From Oscillospiraceae bacterium (lineage in GTDB: Bacteria; Bacillota_A; Clostridia; Oscillospirales; Ruminococcaceae), in the NCBI GenBank assembly GCA_017523995.1, contig JAFWUX010000233.1:1-9319 (forward strand): a DNA stretch of 9,319 nt, read 5' to 3'. Both the position numbers and the translations under genes were made by a program. The notes under the pieces are model-generated. The model saw only the letters and a program-made list of their open reading frames with translations, searched no databases and was not told where the DNA came from. Shown here in pieces: positions 1-7,787 of the stretch (its first letter is position 1; every line of letters begins with the position of its first letter).

Positions 1-504
1 CCGCATGAGCTGTTTATAAAGCCGCAGATAGAGTGCATCCCGGAAACATCGGAAATCGGTGTTCTCTGTGTTCCGTTCATGCAGGAATTCATCGGAAAAT
101 GAGAAATTGAAATGGATGCCGGAAAACAGCATCAGCTTTTTACCGTATTTCTGCTCCAGATATTCGCGGTAACTGCGCTTTGAGGAATGGTCGCCGGTGA
201 ATGCCGCGATCGGGATCTCGTCCTCGCTGTCAAAATGCGGCGGATTGCTGTAAAGCCAGAGATGCTCGCCGTTCGCCTTGAGCGTATCCCGCACCTGTGC
301 ATCCAGCGTGCCGAGCGATTCCAGTGCTTCATCAATGCTGCTGCAAACCGGTGTGACAAGCTCGATCTGATTCTCGCAGAAATCGCGTGTAATATGCGGA
401 TCATCGCCGAACGGATGCGGCGTCTGTGCAAGACTGCCGAAGCTGTCCACGCGCAGCGTTTCACGCTCAATGCCGAATTTTCCTTCAAACGAATGACTTC
501 TCAT
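1..504 (-). CDS. gshA: glutamate-cysteine ligase (GshA, or N-terminal part of a GshAB fusion), 5' portion only
   Basis: The 168 visible codons are open from an ATG at 504-502 to the left edge, so the C-terminal part lies outside the window. The product joins glutamate and cysteine with ATP to make gamma-glutamylcysteine, the first step of glutathione synthesis in the cytosol. Visible family signatures in order are FGIERETLRV (residues 10-19), a DFCENQIELVTPVCSS block (about 40-55) that binds glutamate/metal in the family, LWLYSNPP near residue 85, and YREYLEQKYGKKLMLFSGIH followed by FNFSF (about 112-136). These match the gram-positive GshAB/GshF N-terminal ligase. Whether an ATP-grasp glutathione synthetase domain follows cannot be seen. 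The start is fixed by a GGGAGGT ribosome site (511-517) six bases upstream. The gene is divergent from metK. The family is certain enough; single-domain versus fused is open. Confidence 0.85.
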   Translation of the reverse strand, partial: MRSHSFEGKFGIERETLRVDSFGSLAQTPHPFGDDPHITRDFCENQIELVTPVCSSIDEALESLGTLDAQVRDTLKANGEHLWLYSNPPHFDSEDEIPIAAFTGDHSSKRSYREYLEQKYGKKLMLFSGIHFNFSFSDEFLHERNTENTDFRCFRDALYLRLYKQLMR

Positions 505-553
505 ACGATCACCTCCCGCCGGTTCTGTTTGCATACTGATTTGCTATGCTTAT

Positions 554-582
554 ATTATAGCATATATTTCCTATCACGTCAA
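554..582 (-). promoter_or_regulatory. sigma-A promoter of the glutamate-cysteine ligase gene
   Basis: Read on the minus strand, TTGACG (582-577) and a perfect TATAAT (559-554) are separated by 17 bases, about 50 bases upstream of the start codon. A 6-bp inverted repeat (TATGCT at 545-550, AGCATA at 559-564) straddles the -10 and start-site region and could be an operator; this last point is inference. Confidence 0.8.
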
Positions 583-688
583 TAGGATATACAATACATC
601 ATGCGGATAACAGGTTATAGAATCAGGCTATACCACCAATGCCGCGAAGCTATCATCTCCGGCTATCACCGGTAATCATTTTTATGAA

Positions 689-718
689 TTGGACAACGCA
701 AGCTTTTTGCGATATAAT
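689..718 (+). promoter_or_regulatory. sigma-A promoter of metK
   Basis: TTGGAC (689-694) and TATAAT (713-718) are 18 bases apart. Transcription should begin near 725, giving a leader of about 190 nt before the metK start at 917. The length of the leader, and its structure, are what suggest control by attenuation. Confidence 0.7.
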
Positions 719-725
719 AGGCATA

Positions 726-870
726 TCTTACGGAAGGGAGCTGCTTCTCGATGAAAACGTGTTGTCGCTGTTTCTCACTTCGCAGCAACAAAATACTGAT
801 GAACCGTAGAAACAGCACTTTCATGATCTGACTGTGTACATTTGTGCGCAGCATATTTCAAGGGAAATGC
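726..870 (+). promoter_or_regulatory. structured metK leader: candidate riboswitch or attenuator of unknown class
   Basis: Three helices can be drawn by eye. P1 pairs 726-733 with 804-810 (TCTTACGG/CCGTAGA, seven pairs and one bulged T). P2 is a short hairpin at about 736-749 (GGGAG/TTCTC with wobbles). P3 pairs 760-763 and 767-770 with 783-790 (TGTT, bulge GTC, GCTG; CAGC, AACA). Together they form a three-way junction. Downstream, 851-859 (GCATATTTC) can pair with 864-870 (GAAATGC) around an AAGG loop. That pairing uses the 5' arm of the terminator at 860-889, so the two hairpins exclude each other. The gene controlled makes SAM, so SAM or a precursor is the natural ligand guess. I do not see the conserved blocks of SAM-I, nor those of T-boxes. 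Confidence 0.5.
751..831 (+). CDS. possible 26-residue Cys-rich leader peptide ORF upstream of metK
   Basis: An ATG at 751 opens 26 codons ending in TGA at 829-831. The product begins MKTCCRCF, with Cys codons at 760-765 and 769-771. These codons sit on the 5' arm of leader hairpin P3, so a ribosome stalled there would remodel the leader. The ribosome site is weak: AGGGAG at 735-740 is ten bases from the ATG. The ORF may be fortuitous; the placement of its Cys codons ahead of a sulfur-metabolism gene is the only reason to list it. Confidence 0.2.
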
Positions 871-897
871 ATTGCTCTGCATTTCCCTTTTTATTTT
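860..897 (+). terminator. intrinsic terminator in the metK leader
   Basis: A perfect 12-bp stem (AAGGGAAATGCA at 860-871, TGCATTTCCCTT at 878-889) encloses a six-base loop and runs straight into a T-rich tract (about 886-897). It ends just before the metK ribosome site (904-910). No complete gene of ordinary size ends upstream, so this reads as an attenuator acting on metK rather than an end-of-gene terminator. Confidence 0.85.
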
Positions 898-916
898 TAT
901 GATAAGGAGATTATTT

Positions 917-2089
917 ATGAGCAAGTATATTTTTACATCCGAATCCGTTACAGAGGGACATCCTGATAAGGTCGCAGACAAGATTTCCGATGCGATTCTT
1001 GACGCTTATCTTGCAAAAGATCCGAATGCAAGAGTTGCCGCAGAGACTGTCCTCAAAAACAATACGGTGATTCTCGCAGGTGAGATCAGTTCCTCCGCGG
1101 AAATTGATACCGAAAAGGTTGTCCGAAATGTCATCAATGAGATCGGCTTTGACGGTCACACCGCAGAAATAATCAATCTGCTTGATCGTCAGTCTCCTGA
1201 TATTGCGCAGGGTGTCGATTCGGCGTTGGAAGTCCGGGAAGAAAACGGCAGCGAGATCGGTGCCGGCGATCAGGGCATTATTTTCGGCAATGCGACCGAT
1301 GAAACACCGGAGCTTCTGCCGCTGCCAATCGCCCTTGCACACAGACTTGCTTTCCGCCTGACAGAGGTACGCAAAAACGGCACACTTCCGTACTTGCGTC
1401 CGGATGGCAAAACACAGGTTTCGGTTATTTATGAGGATGACAAAGCTGTCGGGATTGATACGATTCTGATCTCCACGCAGCATGATGAGCGTATTTCACA
1501 GGAACAGCTTCGCGCTGATCTCATTGAATATGTCATTAAGCCGGTGATCCCGCAGCAGTGGCAGAATGAGAATGTACGGATTCTGGTGAATCCGACCGGC
1601 AGATTCGTCATCGGCGGTCCGGTCGGTGACAGCGGTCTCACCGGCAGAAAGATCATTGTCGATACCTACGGCGGTGCCGCGCATCACGGCGGCGGCGCAT
1701 TCAGCGGCAAGGATTCCACAAAGGTTGACAGAAGTGCTGCGTATGCTACAAGATGGGCAGCAAAGAATATTGTAGCAGCAGGACTTGCAGAACGCGCAGA
1801 GATTCAGCTTGCCTATGCGATCGGAGTCGCCGCGCCGGTCTCGGTTTATGTCAACACCTTCGGCACCGGCACACTTCCGGATGAGGTGATTCAGGACGCA
1901 GTTTCGCAGGTTTTCGACTTCACACCCGGCGGCATCATCCGGGAACTGAATCTCCGTCAGCCCGTATTTGCACAGACTGCCGCTTACGGTCATTTCGGCA
2001 GACCGGATACCGATTTTTCATGGGAGCGCATCGACCGCGCAGAGGAACTGAAAAATGTGCTCCGTCTTTCTGTTCATGCCTCAGCGTAA
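917..2089 (+). CDS. metK: S-adenosylmethionine synthetase (methionine adenosyltransferase)
   Basis: The product has 390 residues, the usual family length, and makes S-adenosylmethionine from ATP and methionine in the cytosol as a homotetramer. Signatures visible are [12 protein letters not shown] at residues 7-18 with the catalytic His15, the first PROSITE-type motif GAGDQG at 115-120, the phosphate-loop motif GGGAFSGKD at 258-266, and [11 protein letters not shown] just after. The start at 917 is chosen because AAGGAGA (904-910) lies six bases upstream and [14 protein letters not shown] is the normal family N-terminus. An upstream in-frame ATG at 842 would add 25 residues encoded by the terminator and is rejected. 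The gene is monocistronic: it is preceded by its own promoter and attenuator and followed by a terminator. Identification is secure. Confidence 0.98.
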
Positions 2090-2098
2090 ATAGCAATG

Positions 2099-2137
2099 AA
2101 AGCCTTGCTCTGTGTGTTTGTGAGCAAGGCTTTTCTG
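2099..2137 (+). terminator. intrinsic terminator of metK
   Basis: AAAGCCTTGCTC (2099-2110) pairs perfectly with GAGCAAGGCTTT (2122-2133) over an 11-base loop and leads into TTTTCT. It lies ten bases after the metK stop codon. Confidence 0.85.
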
Positions 2138-2146
2138 TCAAACAGA

Positions 2147-2175
2147 TTGCCTTCCAGACGAATCTGTGATATACT
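2147..2175 (+). promoter_or_regulatory. promoter of the PepT-like peptidase gene
   Basis: TTGCCT (2147-2152) and TATACT (2170-2175) are 17 bases apart, between the metK terminator and the peptidase ribosome site. It is a moderate match to the sigma-A consensus. Confidence 0.6.
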
Positions 2176-2205
2176 GATGGAAAGAATCATGATGGAGGGA
2201 TTTCG

Positions 2206-3327
2206 ATGATACCGACGATTTCGCAGGAACGGCTGACACAGGTATTTCTGGAGCTGATCGCGGTCAGTTCCGAAAGTCTGGATGAACGCAAAGCGGCTGA
2301 TCTGCTCACGCAAAAGCTGCATGAACTCGGTTTTTCTGTTGTTGAAGATAAAGCCGGAGAAAAGCTCGGCGGAAATGCCGGAAATCTGTACGGCTTTCTC
2401 AAAGGGACAATTCCCGGTGAACCGCTCCTGTTTTCAGCGCATATGGATACCGTAAAGCCGGGGCGGAATAAGAAACCGATTCTGCATGAAGACGGAATCT
2501 TTACGTCTGACGGAACGACGGTGCTCGGTGCGGATGATGCAGCGGGACTTGCGGAAATACTGGAAGGCATCCGCAGTGTACGGGAATCCGGTCTGCCGCA
2601 CCGTGATATTGAGATACTGTTTCCGGTAGCAGAGGAGATTTACATTCAGGGAAGCGGCGTGTTCGATTTTAGCCGTATCCGAGCAAAAGAAGCATATGTA
2701 CTGGATATGAGCGGCGAAGTCGGAAGTGCAGCTGTGCGTGCGCCGTCGCTGATTTCGTTTCGCGTGACTGTGAACGGCAGGGCATCTCATGCAGGATTTG
2801 CGCCGGAAAAAGGCGTTCATGCGATTGCGGCTGCGGCAGAAGCAATTGTTCACATTCCGCAGGGTCAGGCGGACGAAGAAACGACTTGCAATATCGGAAC
2901 GATTACCGGCGGTACTGCGAAAAACATTGTTCCGGAGCAATGTGTCTGCATCGGTGAGGTCAGAAGCTTTTCTCATGAAAAGGCGTTGCAATGGATCGAG
3001 ATCATCAACCGTGCCTTTGCGGATGCTGCGGAACGCTTCGGTGCATCGTTTGAAATGGAAACGCAAGAGGTTCTTCGTACATATCGTGTGCCGGACAATG
3101 CACCGGTTGTCAGCAGATTTCAGCGAGCCTGTGCAGCACTTGGGCTTTCCGGTACGCTGCGTTCCACATTCGGCGGAAGCGATAATCACAATTATCTGAA
3201 TGCCGGCATCAGCGGAATCGTGATTTCCTGCGGAATGCAGTGCGTACATTCCACAGAGGAGAATATTTCGATTCCGGAACTGATGAACGGTGCGGCGCTT
3301 GTTGCACAGCTCATCCAAGATGAATGA
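2206..3327 (+). CDS. PepT-like M20 family metallopeptidase
   Basis: The 373-residue product is a cytosolic zinc-dependent aminopeptidase/dipeptidase of the M20 clan, closest in motif pattern to the PepT-like group. Metal and catalytic positions can be read off: SAHMDTV with His79 and catalytic Asp81, GADDAAG with bridging Asp110, AEE with general base Glu143 and ligand Glu144, Asp167 in VLDMSGEVG, and a C-terminal His348 in CVHSTEE. The lid/dimerisation domain lies between about 180 and 290 (ASHAGFAPEKG, TCNIGTITGG). GGAGGG (2194-2199) six bases upstream fixes the ATG. All key residues are present, so it should be active on short peptides; the exact substrate cannot be told. It stands alone between two terminators. 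Confidence 0.88.
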   Translation: MIPTISQERLTQVFLELIAVSSESLDERKAADLLTQKLHELGFSVVEDKAGEKLGGNAGNLYGFLKGTIPGEPLLFSAHMDTVKPGRNKKPILHEDGIFTSDGTTVLGADDAAGLAEILEGIRSVRESGLPHRDIEILFPVAEEIYIQGSGVFDFSRIRAKEAYVLDMSGEVGSAAVRAPSLISFRVTVNGRASHAGFAPEKGVHAIAAAAEAIVHIPQGQADEETTCNIGTITGGTAKNIVPEQCVCIGEVRSFSHEKALQWIEIINRAFADAAERFGASFEMETQEVLRTYRVPDNAPVVSRFQRACAALGLSGTLRSTFGGSDNHNYLNAGISGIVISCGMQCVHSTEENISIPELMNGAALVAQLIQDE

Positions 3328-3360
3328 TTTGTTGTGAAGTGTATTTTTTTATAATGAGTT

Positions 3361-3394
3361 ACGGGAACCAACAAAGCGCCGGTTCCCGTTTCGT
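3361..3394 (+). terminator. likely terminator of the peptidase gene
   Basis: ACGGGAACC (3361-3369) pairs perfectly with GGTTCCCGT (3381-3389) over an 11-base loop and is followed by a weak T tract (TTCGTT). The minus-strand reading lacks a T tract, so it acts rightward if at all. Confidence 0.6.
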
Positions 3395-3459
3395 TATACC
3401 CTTTTGTCGAGATCATCTTCTCCTCCGCGGTGTGAACTGCACTCTTTTTGGAATAGGGA

Positions 3460-3474
3460 GCCCTGATTCAGGGC
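3460..3474. repeat. palindrome at the 3' end of the minus-strand cysteine-cluster gene
   Basis: GCCCTGA T TCAGGGC is a perfect 7-bp inverted repeat about one centre base, six bases beyond the minus-strand stop codon at 3481-3483. It may act as a weak terminator or mRNA 3' end, although no T run follows on the minus strand. Confidence 0.45.
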
Positions 3475-3480
3475 GTCATC

Positions 3481-4421
3481 TTAATCGCATTCAGTTGGTT
3501 CTCCGTACTTGGCAAGTATCTCGTATTTCTTATTGTTTAGTTCATCATAGAGTTTATTCTTGATTTCGTTTTTCAGCTTGAAGATATCTCTGATCGGTGC
3601 ATCGGTCGCTTTCATCGTCTTCGCTCGCGCCTTGACGGAATTCTGCATCGGTGTCGCAAAAGCATTGAATTCCTCCACTGCATGTGCTGATTCGCAGATC
3701 TGTACAATATTACAGCGATGCTGTCGGACGCGGCAGGAGAAATTGCGGACAAGCGCCGACAGCTCGTTTTTTTCTGATATGGATCGGTCATTTCCAGATA
3801 CTTTTTGCAATCCGGATTTGTGCAGCAATCATCGTTCGGCTTGCCACAGAAATAGTCTCCGCAGACGGTGCAGGTGCAAATTGCTGATCCGGTCTGCTGC
3901 AGCATATCTTGGAACATGATTAGAAAAGCATTGCAGGGGAAAACAGAGCTGTACCATGTCTGTCCGCCGATGATTTCCGCCTGAACCGGCTGAAAAAGAG
4001 AAAACTCGTCGAGATCCGGCGTTGTACCGGCAGGGAATGCAGTCAACAGTCTGCGCAACTGTTCAAAGCCGGGCTGTACCTGATCTTTCATGTGACCGCC
4101 GACCGTTTTCAGCTTGATCCTCATGATATCCTCATTATGATACAGCGCGTATTCGTAAATCGAATCCAGTAAAAATACGCAAAAAGCGCCGTTATACCCT
4201 GCATCTTTATAGTTCTGGACTGCCTCGTGCAGTCCTTTTTCTTTTGTACCCTTGCGAATCCGTTCTTCTGCCTTGTCCGCCAGATCATTGATAACCGGCA
4301 GATTCGCCGCCAAGTGGTTGATCTGCTGTATAGCTTGCGTAAAGCTGCACTCGGTTTCGGTATCGTCTGCGAGAAAATGCACGGCGTATATGCTCAGGTC
4401 AAAGCGAAATCTCAGTTTCAT
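3481..4421 (-). CDS. DUF6076-like cysteine-cluster protein, split between two frames at an A7 run
   Basis: From ATG 4421 the first frame is open for 269 codons (to 3612). The sensible C-terminal part lies in the -1 frame and ends at TAA 3481-3483; joined, they give 313 residues. Residues 182-205 hold seven cysteines (CTCTVCGDYFC...CC...C), a likely zinc ribbon. After the shift the product continues NELSALVRNF and a charged helical tail ending KYGEPTECD. The pattern recalls DUF6076 proteins of clostridia, from memory only; function is unknown. The switch falls exactly on codons 217-218 (AAA AAA, A7 at 3773-3767). A stem (GCTGTCGG/CCGACAGC) starts three bases later. This is either programmed -1 frameshifting, an indel that kills the gene, or an assembly error. 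The start has only GGAG 11 bases upstream, but the promoter ahead of it is perfect. Confidence 0.6.
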
Positions 4422-4451
4422 CGTCGGTAATTCTCCACGTTTTTTACTCTC

Positions 4452-4480
4452 ATTATACGTTTTCAGAGGACGTTTGTCAA
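4452..4480 (-). promoter_or_regulatory. perfect consensus sigma-A promoter of the cysteine-cluster gene
   Basis: On the minus strand TTGACA (4480-4475) and TATAAT (4457-4452) match the consensus at all twelve positions with the ideal 17-base spacer, about 30 bases ahead of the start codon. Such a strong promoter in front of a frame-split gene argues that the gene is, or recently was, expressed. Confidence 0.85.
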
Positions 4481-4538
4481 GGAAAAATCCAATAATAAAC
4501 TAGTTTTTATTTCTGAAATCAAATTGTTTTCTAGTTTT

Positions 4539-4581
4539 ACACGGAAACGTGTTTGCAAAAATCGGAGGAATGCGCTACACT
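4539..4581 (+). promoter_or_regulatory. promoter and operator-like palindrome of the ATPase operon
   Basis: TTGCAA (4553-4558) and TACACT (4576-4581) are 17 bases apart, a moderate promoter for the rightward operon. Directly upstream is a 14-bp palindrome ACACG GAAA CGTGT (4539-4552) abutting the -35. It is placed where a repressor or activator would act; the excisionase-type HTH protein of this operon is one candidate. Nearby, CTAGTTTT occurs twice, 31 bases apart (4500 and 4531). Confidence 0.45.
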
Positions 4582-4662
4582 GGATAGTAGAGCACACAGC
4601 TCTGAAAAAATACAGTGAGCTGCCGCAACAATTCGTTCGTGCAGCGGAAAGGAGGCATCAAC

Positions 4663-4725
4663 ATGAGCAGGGACAGTCCGCAGATCGCAGTTTTGCAAAC
4701 AACACAGAAAGGAGGGGTTCAATGA
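4663..4725 (+). CDS. 20-residue leader ORF translationally coupled to the AAA ATPase
   Basis: ATG 4663 opens 20 codons ending in TGA 4723-4725, which overlaps the ATPase start codon as ATGA. Its ribosome site AAAGGAGG (4648-4655), seven bases upstream, is among the best in the window, so translation is likely. The product has no recognisable domain. Coupling would make ATPase synthesis depend on translation of this leader. It could also be the remnant of a longer gene; the tail QKGGVQ faintly resembles a ParA-type QKGGVGKT loop, probably by chance. Confidence 0.4.
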   Translation: MSRDSPQIAVLQTTQKGGVQ

Positions 4726-5774
4726 CAGATGAAAAGACAATGCAGCAGGACATTCCGCTGAAACTGATTCACATGGACGAGATAGAGGCGACCGATACGC
4801 ACTGGCTCTGGTATCCGTACATCCCATACGGCAAGATCACGATCATTCAGGGCGATCCCGGCGAAGGCAAGACAACGCTGGTGCTGCATCTTGCTGCGGA
4901 GCTGACGCGTGGTAAAATGATCAGCTCTGAGGAACAGCTGGAGCCGGTTACGGTGATCTATCAGACAGCGGAGGATGGCTTGGCAGATACGATCAAGCCA
5001 CGCCTGATTGCCGCAAATGCCGATTGCTAAAAGGTTCTCGTGATTGATGAAACGGAACAATGCGTTTCGATGACAGACGGCAGACTGGAAGCCGCAATTC
5101 AGCAGACCGATGCAAAGCTCGTGATCCTTGATCCGATTCAGGCGTATCTCGGTGCAACGGTGGATATGCACCGGGCAAATGAAGTCCGACCGATCATGTC
5201 GCACCTTGCCGGTATCGCGGAGAAATACGGTTGTGCAATCGTCCTGATCGGTCACATGAACAAGTCTTCAGGGCAGAAAGCATCGTATCGCGGGCTCGGA
5301 AGCATCGACTTTGCAGCGGCTGCGCGGAGTGTTCTGATCGTGGCGCGGGACAAGGAGAATCCGCAAGTGCGTGTCATGATTCATGCAAAGAGCAGTCTTG
5401 CGCCGGAAGGCAAGCCGGTTGCGTTTGAACTGGACGCAGACAATGGGTTTCGCTTCATCGGAGAATATGACGGTGACCCGAGCGAACTGCTCTCTGGTTA
5501 CGGCGGAAAGAAGAAAGGAAAACTTGCGGAACAGCTACTTCTGCATGAACTGAGAGAAGGAGCAAAATCGCAGAAAGAGATACTTGCAAGAGCGGAGGAA
5601 TGCGGCATTTCCAAGCACACGATGGTTGCAGCAAAGAAGACGCTCGGCGTGCAGTCTGAGAAAAAGGCAGACGGCTGGTATTGGTCGCTGCCGGACGGCA
5701 ATGATGCAAGGATGCAAGAGTGCAAAGACAACGAAAGTTTGCATCCTTGCACGCTTGAACAGGGAGGGGTATGA
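4722..5774 (+). pseudogene. RepA/RecA-like AAA ATPase (hexameric helicase type) interrupted by an in-frame TAA
   Basis: Read through, the frame encodes 350 residues of an AAA_25/RepA-like ATPase of the sort carried next to mobilization genes on plasmids and integrative elements. Visible are Walker A GDPGEGKTT (44-52), YQTAEDGL, Walker B KLVILDPIQAYLG with Asp137, the sensor-like IGHMNKSSG (about 176-184), and a C-terminal winged-helix-like segment (about 285-345, KSQKEILARAEECGISKHTM). Codon 103 is TAA (5028-5030), directly before KVLVIDE, where a sense codon such as TCA or GAA is expected. No frame change occurs and the protein resumes perfectly. A GTG at 5040 with AAAAGG before it could restart translation, giving separate Walker A and Walker B halves. 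The start at 4722 has AAAGGAGGGG (4708-4717). Otherwise this is a very recent pseudogene. Confidence 0.8.
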
Positions 5775-5776
5775 AC

Positions 5777-6034
5777 ATGAAGAGAACAAAAAGCGAAATC
5801 ATGGCTGAAATCATCGCGCTGATCGGTCAGCTTGCAAACGATGAGGAAGAGACGACTCCGGTCGAGATGCTGACGATCAAGGAATGCACCGGCGTCATTC
5901 ACGGGCTTTCTGAGCATACCGTTCGGCAGCTGATTGCGCAGGGCAAGCTGCCGAGCATCCGAACCGGTCAGGGTGTGCGCGGCAAGATTCTGGTCAACAA
6001 AGCCGACCTGCTCGCGTATTTCACGGGGGTATAA
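5777..6034 (+). CDS. excisionase-family helix-turn-helix DNA-binding protein
   Basis: The 85-residue protein has an acidic N-terminal helix and then an HTH_17/MerR-like excisionase domain (about residues 32-83): MLTIKECTGVI, SEHTVRQLIAQGKLPSIRTG, and a wing ending KILVNKADLLAYF. Proteins of this type bind element ends as excision factors, or act as regulators, in mobile elements. An earlier in-frame ATG at 5771 overlaps the ATPase stop as ATGA. However, GGGAGGGG (5762-5769) is only one base from that ATG and seven from the ATG at 5777, so I prefer the latter. It is the second complete cistron of the operon. The fold is clear; excisionase versus repressor role is not. Confidence 0.8.
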   Translation: MKRTKSEIMAEIIALIGQLANDEEETTPVEMLTIKECTGVIHGLSEHTVRQLIAQGKLPSIRTGQGVRGKILVNKADLLAYFTGV

Positions 6035-6939: not shown

Positions 6940-7045
6940 ATGACAGTAGAGAGGTTTAGTATCAGCTTTACGCTCGGAAAAGCGAGCGCGGCACACGGTG
7001 CAAATGTCAATCACAATAACCGGAAGTTCCTCGCGGACAACATTC
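6940..7045 (+). pseudogene. Mob/Pre (MOBV) relaxase, N-terminal fragment
   Basis: From ATG 6940, with GAGGGG at 6931-6936, about 35 codons read as the N-terminus of a plasmid recombination enzyme: MTVERFSISFTLGKAS, AHGANVNHNNRKFLADNI. The SFTxGKxS and HNNR blocks are the first conserved motif of Mob/Pre (PF01076) proteins, which nick oriT and lead the strand during mobilization. After Ile35 (7042-7044) the family resemblance stops. The frame stays open to 7155, but it now reads the complement of another relaxase gene. Full-length members have roughly 400 residues, so all catalytic regions beyond motif I are lost. Confidence 0.75.
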
Positions 7046-7549
7046 CCAACGGCTCTTTCCCTTGCCCATTTCAGGGTGTTCAATTACATTCAGATGATGC
7101 CGTTTGCACACTTCGTCGGATGTGTCACGGAGCTTCTTCCACATACGTTCGCTGATCTTGCCCTGATTGTTCAGCGTCTGGAAAGTATAGCCGTTCAACA
7201 GGTTCGTATTATTGAATACGCAATGCAGGTGCGTGTGCTGTTTATCAACGTGGACTGTCAGCAGAAACTGGTACTGATCGTCCAGAAATTTCGTGCAGAT
7301 TTCCTTGCCGACTTCAAGCGCCCTTTCAGGAGTAATCTCACCGGGCTTGAAGCTGACAATAAAGTGCTGAGCGAGGACAGAGCTTCTGCGTGATCTGATC
7401 TCGGCAAAATCCTTTGCGGCTCTGCTCGGTTTTTCGCTGCAACCGAAGGCATAGACGAGCCTGCCGTTGTCGGTCTTTTCTGGATTGGCGATGTAGGCAA
7501 GAGCGCCTTCCACATCTGCGTGTATCGGAAATATTTTTGTCGTCGCCAT
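7007..7549 (-). pseudogene. relaxase/mobilization nuclease (MOBP-like), C-terminally truncated
   Basis: From ATG 7549 the minus strand encodes MATTKIFPIHADVEGALAYI, NPEKTDNGRL and later QHFIVSFKPGEITPERALEV. The metal-binding triad HVDKQHTHLHC is at residues 100-110 (His105, His107, His109), followed by FNNTNLLNGYTFQTLNNQGK. These are hallmarks of clostridial VirD2-like relaxases (Pfam Relaxase family). Family resemblance ends at Glu169 (7043-7045). Eleven residues then follow from the complement of the Mob/Pre fragment before TGA 7007-7009. The primase-like or coiled C-terminal part typical of these proteins is missing. GGAG lies 11 bases upstream of the start. The nuclease core could still fold, but mobilization function is doubtful. 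Confidence 0.8.
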
Positions 7550-7666
7550 AGGTAGCGTTTCTCCAATCTTTTTCAGCAAATAATTCACCTGAATTTTTGC
7601 TGAATCTTTCTCTTTTCTTTGCGGGGTTGTAGGGGCAGCCAGCCCTCTGCCAAGCGGTGTATAAAA

Positions 7667-7787
7667 GCATTCAAATCTCAAATTTGTAATGCGGTTATAC
7701 CATGCTTGCGAACTGTGAATATGCCCGTTCCGGGCATTTTTCATTTTGAGCCTTCGGCTCTAGGATTTTTCTCACTCCTGTGAGAAA
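7667..7787. other. candidate oriT region: hairpin cluster upstream of the MOBP-like relaxase
   Basis: Four inverted repeats lie 120-240 bases upstream of the minus-strand relaxase. They are GCATT CAAAT with ATTTG (bulged T) AATGC (7667-7692), ATGCCCG ttc CGGGCAT (7721-7737), GAGCC ttc GGCTC (7748-7760), and TTTCTCAC tcct GTGAGAAA (7768-7787). The first has the bulged-stem shape common in oriT repeats. The second is followed by TTTTCATTTT on the plus strand and could serve as a rightward terminator. The assignment to oriT rests on position and structure only. Confidence 0.4.

Follow-up and report, generated by a model that had tools for sequence, protein, structure and literature searches.

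The DNA analyzed here, in the following called the window, is a stretch of 9,319 nucleotides from an Oscillospiraceae bacterium. It harbors the gene metK2, which is preceded by the leader dissected in Table 1. A preliminary description had claimed a promoter, a structured leader, an intrinsic terminator with a T tract and a metK gene downstream of it, and all four were verified. The whole leader folded with -53.9 kcal/mol (z -4.36), better than 200 of 200 shuffled sequences, the hairpin at 860-889 was its only terminator-like site, and metK2 matched the model TIGR01034 with an E-value of 6.5e-164. The GGACA..TATAAT-like pair of the promoter is retained in most of the aligned relatives, and AAAGGAG occupies the position of the Shine-Dalgarno sequence of the leader peptide in these relatives.

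Table 1. Parts of the metK2 leader in the window; positions are counted from the first nucleotide of the window.
Feature	Position	Strand	Basis
Promoter-like site TGGACA-17-TATAAT	690..718	+	Consensus scan, 11/12
Shine-Dalgarno-like AAGGGAG for the leader peptide, ATG ten bases on	734..740	+	Sequence
Leader peptide uORF, 26 residues	751..831	+	Poly-Cys uORF in relatives and in-frame pN/pS
Regulatory codons TGT TGT CGC TGT (Cys Cys Arg Cys)	760..771	+	Sequence; in relatives 3-5 Cys per run
Segment 1, partner 808-816	767..775	+	9 pairs in the window; RNAalifold
Segment 2; 808-816 pairs with segment 1, 815-822 able to pair with 864-870	808..822	+	Folding
Stop codon TGA of the uORF; a ribosome there would cover segment 2	829..831	+	Sequence; usual ribosome footprint
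Hairpin separating uORF and terminator	832..851	+	8 pairs in the window
Segment 3, predicted antiterminator partner within the 5' arm of the terminator	864..870	+	Folding
Intrinsic terminator hairpin (3:4), followed by a T-rich tail	860..889	+	12 pairs, 6-nt loop
Shine-Dalgarno-like AAGGAG for metK2	904..909	+	Sequence
metK2, methionine adenosyltransferase, second copy in its genome	917..2089	+	Three S-AdoMet_synt Pfam domains; TIGR01034 above cut-off

The window starts with a divergent glutamate-cysteine ligase-like gene (1-504, minus strand; PF04262, E 1.2e-39) that is cut by the window end. A PF04262 gene lies likewise upstream of metK2 at two related loci (L062, L074), where it is another sulfur gene beside metK2. 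On the 3' side, behind metK2 and an M20-type peptidase gene, an HTH_17 protein (5771-6031, plus strand) and a relaxase (7010-7744, minus strand) are encoded, which suggests a mobile element nearby. The gene at 4713-5771 (plus strand) looks broken; its frames 4713-5030 and 5040-5771 match adjoining parts of one AAA_25 domain. In the genome that was used as the window's own, one contig (C197, 5783 bases) covers only positions 196-5978 and has 8 mismatches, and therefore this genome is very near to the source of the window, albeit not identical to it.

The preliminary description had overlooked that the leader contains an open reading frame (uORF, 751-831) as well as the helix of 767-775 with 808-816. 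The uORF reads ATG AAA ACG TGT TGT CGC TGT ... TGA, and its three Cys codons in total, at 760-765 and 769-771, are interrupted by an Arg codon. A MetK protein search of genome contigs yielded a related group of 18 loci with 77-87% identity (L061-L077 and L122), many of them titled Ruminococcus or R. flavefaciens and most of ruminant origin. The upstream DNA was readable at 17 loci, L071 with its 17 nt of upstream DNA being excluded, and a poly-Cys uORF was present at all 17, at 16 of them directly upstream, that is within 350 nt of metK, and at the remaining one ahead of an operon. Examples of the leader peptides are MKKICCCCFSLSNRIVNCRRNSTFAI (L070), MKKICCCFSLDNRIFSYRRNSNFVL (L062), MKICCHCCNRKPENRIMNYRGKTAFAE (L076) and MKKCCCTRNNCIRC (L122). 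A uORF with at least three Cys in six residues was found at 18 of 108 metK loci, compared with 56 of 5400 shuffled sequences. These 18 positives consisted of 16 loci of the metK2 group and of L090 and L193, the uORFs of which look like chance occurrences; at metK loci outside the group no poly-Cys uORF was found on the match strand (0/29, L002-L030).

The substitution pattern revealed selection on the encoded peptide. With 16 aligned uORFs, L122 being left out, pN/pS was 0.386 in frame and 0.936 and 0.747 in the two shifted frames, and a comparison of the uORF of the window with the other 15 gave a pS of 0.70 and a pN of 0.22. Within the Cys run TGT and TGC are freely exchanged, while the run is kept at 3-5 clustered codons in the relatives, and C-terminal residues such as RRNSTF are likewise conserved. 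On these grounds of sequence conservation, the uORF is most probably translated. The leader peptide of L122 is the shortest of the set with 14 residues; metK2 at this locus is read in two frames (L122:2031-3183, matches 2031-2408 and 2401-3183), and the same genome has another metK2, L071.

When 15 genomes were searched for the pattern MK..CCC in uORFs, 14 yielded their metK2 leader, that of L076 deviating from the pattern; this search did not catch a second leader, which came to light via the operon described below. The other in-frame matches that were inspected lie inside or antisense to longer frames, or they start longer genes that are csoR-like by eye. A covariance model of the leaders, run over 295 genomes of the order, matched 18 genomes, including the window itself, and revealed no further convincing member. 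Its weak matches, 17 loci with 27-35.3 bits and E-values of 1.1e-5 to 6.1e-4, were taken as chance: 16 lacked a start with at least three Cys in six residues, and at L237 an open frame with three Cys in six did not end inside the match. When 396 genomes of the family were searched with the leader DNA, the best matches apart from the own genome spanned only the metK start or the terminator region, and collections of plasmids and phages contained distant metK matches only, none of them spanning 80% of the query.

The leaders of 15 relatives were aligned with that of the window. L067 was used neither in the alignment nor for folding, as its terminator loop contains an insertion; about 90-100 extra bases lie between the two terminator arms (L067:1859-2110), which may disable this terminator. 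RNAalifold predicted, unprompted, a helix of seven pairs between the Cys codons and the end of the uORF, the hairpin behind the stop codon and the terminator, and also a small hairpin of four pairs near the Shine-Dalgarno sequence. The first of these, the 1:2 helix of segments 1 and 2, also appears when the whole leader is folded to its minimum free energy. Across the 15 relatives, 100 of 121 cells of the alignment were paired in the 1:2 helix, 160 of 180 in the terminator, and 74 of 120 in the hairpin at 832-851, which is the weakest helix of the attenuator structure. In 13 of the 16 leaders the 1:2 duplex was stronger than in shuffled sequences (p<=0.05). In comparison with 500 shuffled alignments, which take no account of relatedness, the attenuator structure had a covariation of 0.175 versus 0.148 (4 shuffles as high), 80.7% paired cells (14 as high), and 16 cells changed on both sides versus 10.5 (8 as high). 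Two further measures were at the level of the shuffles, namely 7 pairs changed on both sides versus 6.3 (209 as high) and 25 further pair types versus 26.1 (429 as high).

The preliminary description raised the possibility of a novel RNA sensor for SAM or sulfur, in which the helices P1, P2 and P3 form a three-way junction, and it named an alternative hairpin at 851-870. Such a metabolite-binding riboswitch, of a new class for SAM, cysteine or sulfur and with an incidental uORF, would agree with the frequent control of metK genes by riboswitches and with the strong fold, and P1, P2 and P3 can indeed form in the window. Yet they are paired in only 49 of 103, 33 of 60 and 62 of 114 cells, respectively, in the 15 relatives, their covariation was 0.082 versus 0.084 in shuffles, and all five measures were at shuffle level; the hairpin at 851-870 is paired in 17 of 120 cells. 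When P1 and P3 were checked for conservation and covariation among the relatives, both were absent, and therefore the riboswitch model fails by the criterion that the preliminary description had itself set. In addition, P1 and P3 share sequence with the Shine-Dalgarno region and with the protein-coding uORF, and the region is under protein-coding selection. The claimed absence of a known riboswitch class was borne out: the window had no Rfam match at the gathering score, positions 500-1100 gave only five sub-threshold matches (best E 1.1), and at the gathering score none was found in the metK2 leaders L061, L062, L070, L076 and L122 nor at L077. With Rfam negative for window and relatives and with low pair counts for P1-P3, the riboswitch hypothesis was rejected.

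The consequences of ribosome positions were analyzed by folding, with the edge of a stalled ribosome set 12 nt from the A-site codon. With the ribosome stalled on the Cys codons, all 16 metK2 leaders are predicted to form an antiterminator that sequesters 5-11 bases of the terminator arm; in the window 8 of the 12 arm bases pair upstream. With the ribosome at the stop codon or with no ribosome at all, the terminator is predicted for each of the 16 leaders, with no more than one pair missing. Taken one by one, 8 of the 16 antiterminators were stronger than in shuffled sequences (p<=0.05), that of the window not being among them (p 0.34). The total of arm pairing, 117, was moderately higher than the 95.4 of the shuffles (sd 9.6, maximum 120 in 200 shuffles), and pairing of the terminator arm alone is a weak test of an antiterminator.

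The best explanation, given with high confidence, is that the metK2 leader is a classical ribosome-mediated transcription attenuator, which would respond to tRNA-Cys charging and thereby control metK2. By analogy with known attenuators, at plentiful Cys-tRNA, the ribosome would pass the Cys codons, reach the stop codon at 829-831 and cover segment 2, and then the terminator at 860-889 would form and end transcription before metK2. At scarce Cys-tRNA, it would stall at 760-771 and mask segment 1; segment 2 could then pair with 864-870, the terminator would not form, and metK2 would be made. In the absence of translation, the 1:2 helix as well as the terminator would form. The term attenuator, which the preliminary description had already used, thus survives in a changed form as a leader-peptide type, the conserved elements of which are the Cys reading frame, the 1:2 helix and the terminator. 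Its proposal of sulfur sensing survives in a changed form as well, while a three-way-junction RNA is unsupported.

At least two metK matches were present in 16 of 16 genomes searched. A full second metK with 60-62% identity, here called metK1, was found in 15 of them (not in G457), and in 14 of these 15 the upstream stretch of metK1 contains a SAM-I riboswitch, the exception being G456 (L213); this can be counted in favor of riboswitch control also at metK2. In the genome of the window, the other metK is located on contig C84 (64% identity), with a SAM-I match about 1 kb upstream. With a SAM-I riboswitch at metK1 and a poly-Cys leader at metK2, the signal for metK1 is SAM, and that for metK2 appears to be cysteine. 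A third, more distant type of metK with 46-47% identity is represented by G444:C17:61962-63044 and by second matches in G003 and G004; the upstream stretch of the gene in G444 (L225) is without an Rfam match.

At the locus L077 the uORF, MRKSCCCSKVQSIVMKQRNSTSYRPRVR, lies about 1 kb upstream of metK2 and together with a terminator precedes an entire operon. The gene order is LCM-type methyltransferase, metK2, LuxS, an mccB-like gene for a Cys/Met-metabolism PLP enzyme and an mccA-like gene for a cysteine-synthase-like enzyme, with functions assigned from families and with mccB and mccA models below the NCBIfam cut-offs. Together these genes would lead from methionine to cysteine, once the SAH nucleosidase required by LuxS is added. 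In six other genomes a methyltransferase-mccB-mccA operon is separate from metK2, and it has a poly-Cys uORF of its own in 6 of 6. The sequence of this uORF differs from that of metK2, e.g., MRKNMICCCMCYMIYERILRACAQRCCILS at L275, and it is followed by a terminator. In the window's own genome (L281, MKTMCCMLCCMTANNQIRMSHTRAAQQRCRLSHVI) Shine-Dalgarno sequence, terminator and methyltransferase start follow in order, and a second contig carries the rest of an mccB, then ahcY (TIGR00936, above cut-off) and then mccA; we infer that the two contigs join. At L270, L271, L273 and L274 genes that by eye resemble those of a substrate-binding lipoprotein, an ABC ATPase and a permease lie just upstream of the operon leader.

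The survey was extended to all metK2 genomes and to the wider family. The methyltransferase protein search matched 17 of 17 metK2 genomes, and a poly-Cys uORF precedes the methyltransferase-mccB operon in 16 of these, including the window's own; the operon of G457 (L298) is devoid of it. Two separate poly-Cys leaders exist in 15 genomes, and in the genome of L077 metK2 and luxS are under the same leader (L299) as the rest of the operon. A search of 396 genomes of the wider family detected the methyltransferase at E <= 1e-40 in 24, and a poly-Cys uORF was found at 13 of the 23 loci from it (L301-L323), of which three look like chance (L315, L318, L319) and one (L303, coinciding with L295) belongs to a genome that had been included before. 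Of 41 operon loci, 40 were examined, L300 being left out as a C-terminal fragment, and a uORF with at least three Cys in six residues was present at 29 of the 40, compared with 13 of 800 shuffles. Folding was performed for 24 of these 29 leaders, without L303, L304 (peptide identical to that of L295), L315, L318 and L319. The terminator was found in 24 of 24, and the stalled-state antiterminator was predicted in 22 of 24, L305 and L314 having none, and the arm-pairing total was moderately raised with 214 versus 181.6 (sd 13.9, maximum 213 in 100 shuffles). For 15 operon uORFs the pN/pS values of the three frames were 0.61, 1.10 and 0.60. As this is no clear frame preference, the case for their translation is made by the Shine-Dalgarno sequences and the conserved Cys pattern.

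The operon leaders share the Cys codons and the attenuator layout with the metK2 leader, and no aptamer-like sequence was seen in them. Poly-Cys leaders at an operon for the conversion of methionine to cysteine, i.e., the existence of a regulon, are decisive for the attenuator over the riboswitch, which is regarded as exceedingly improbable. Two further explanations concern the peptide itself. The nascent Cys-rich peptide could stall its ribosome upon sensing a small molecule or a metal, not uncharged tRNA-Cys, with the same RNA switch downstream; Cys-rich peptides are able to bind metals, and the conservation of C-terminal residues in the metK2 leaders would fit. However, the operon leaders have clustered Cys within a different peptide sequence, the conserved RRNST codons fall into segment 2, where RNA pairing can explain them, and the target genes form cysteine, and thus a ligand-sensing arrest peptide is considered very improbable. 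Alternatively, the small peptide might be a working product, e.g., for metal or redox binding, that is co-transcribed with metK2 under some other control. The coding selection would be in line with such a role, in contrast to the terminator 3' of the uORF at both kinds of targets, the overlap of the 1:2 helix with the Cys codons, and the length of merely 14-15 residues of the uORFs of L122, L313 and L314; the probability of a working peptide is regarded as almost negligible.

The attenuator would thus act on genes of one pathway. The leader-controlled operon genes, i.e., methyltransferase, luxS, mccB-like, mccA-like and ahcY, are Cys-forming, and MetK2 would provide the first step from methionine via SAM, SAH, homocysteine and cystathionine to cysteine, working alongside the methyltransferase-mccB-mccA operon under its own poly-Cys leader. 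PF01053 was present in 7 of 7 genomes searched, and the cysE model TIGR01172 was matched in 7 of 7 and exceeded its cut-off in none. No T-box was matched with Rfam in the window nor at 20 and 7 operon loci. Elsewhere in these genomes T-boxes do occur, with 4-15 matches per genome in 5 of 5 genomes searched, none of them on the contigs of metK2 or of the methyltransferase operon.

Classical amino acid attenuators are the trp, his and leu leaders of enterobacteria. The metK2 leader resembles them in its segments 1:2, 2:3 and 3:4 and in the placement of the regulatory codons in segment 1, whereas amino acid, lineage and target genes are different. Poly-Cys leader uORFs of Actinobacteria have reportedly also been treated by Canestrari et al. 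in 2020. Cys-codon leader peptides precede mycobacterial, propionibacterial and bifidobacterial cys/cbs genes (PMC1262725, PMC4633059), and the likeness lies in a short leader ORF with runs of Cys codons, placed upstream of genes of Cys metabolism, including cbs of Bifidobacterium longum. In the relevant passages on Actinobacteria, no conserved terminator is reported (PMC1262725), the Cys run is near the stop codon, and the mycobacterial uORFs are leaderless; in contrast, the uORF described here is led by a Shine-Dalgarno sequence, has its Cys run near the start and is followed by an intrinsic terminator. The uORFC-8-2 motif before cysS of Rhodobacterales, for which the authors propose, in the section on this motif, Cys-tRNA-dependent ribosome-mediated attenuation (Brewer et al., 2021; PMC8632094), likewise has a tandem-Cys uORF inside a stem and an intrinsic terminator downstream. 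That motif, as presented there, belongs to Alphaproteobacteria, targets cysteinyl-tRNA synthetase and has two Cys codons near codons 14-15, whereas the leaders of this study belong to Clostridia, have 3-5 Cys codons near the start and target metK2 and the Met-to-Cys operon.

The nearest counterpart with regard to the pathway is found in Clostridium, where, according to the pertinent part of PMC2940859, a Cys T-box controls a methyltransferase-mccBA operon and an S-box controls metK. The Cys T-box precedes ubiG-mccBA(-luxS) in Clostridium perfringens, C. botulinum and C. acetobutylicum, and pathway, presumed tRNA-Cys charging signal and premature termination are the same as proposed here (PMC2940859, same part). 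The sensor described there is a tRNA-binding T-box RNA, whereas at the loci of this study it would be a translated poly-Cys uORF, no T-box having been found at them. Searches of open-licence full text brought up no paper in which metK or a Met-to-Cys operon of Clostridia is preceded by a Cys leader peptide.

By its mechanism the switch would be of an ordinary kind, though in an unexpected place, and the regulon would make sense of both the leader and the duplication of metK, the function being inferred. The case is also a caution that a structured leader of no known class before metK need not be a riboswitch. It seems probable that R. flavefaciens-like Clostridia of rumen and gut have a dedicated route from methionine to cysteine, which comprises MetK2, a TIGR00027/LCM-type methyltransferase that converts SAM to SAH, LuxS or AhcY, MccA and MccB, and which forms one regulon under poly-Cys leaders in place of the Cys T-box reported for other clostridia, while the housekeeping MetK1 is under SAM-I control, so that SAM for methylation and SAM for sulfur answer different signals. 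If this is true, one pathway in Clostridia can be under either a tRNA-binding Cys T-box or, in its place, a ribosome-stalling sensor, the latter in genomes with T-boxes at other loci. It would also suggest a role for the methyltransferase and a role for the duplication of metK, with a SAM synthetase as the first step of cysteine synthesis.
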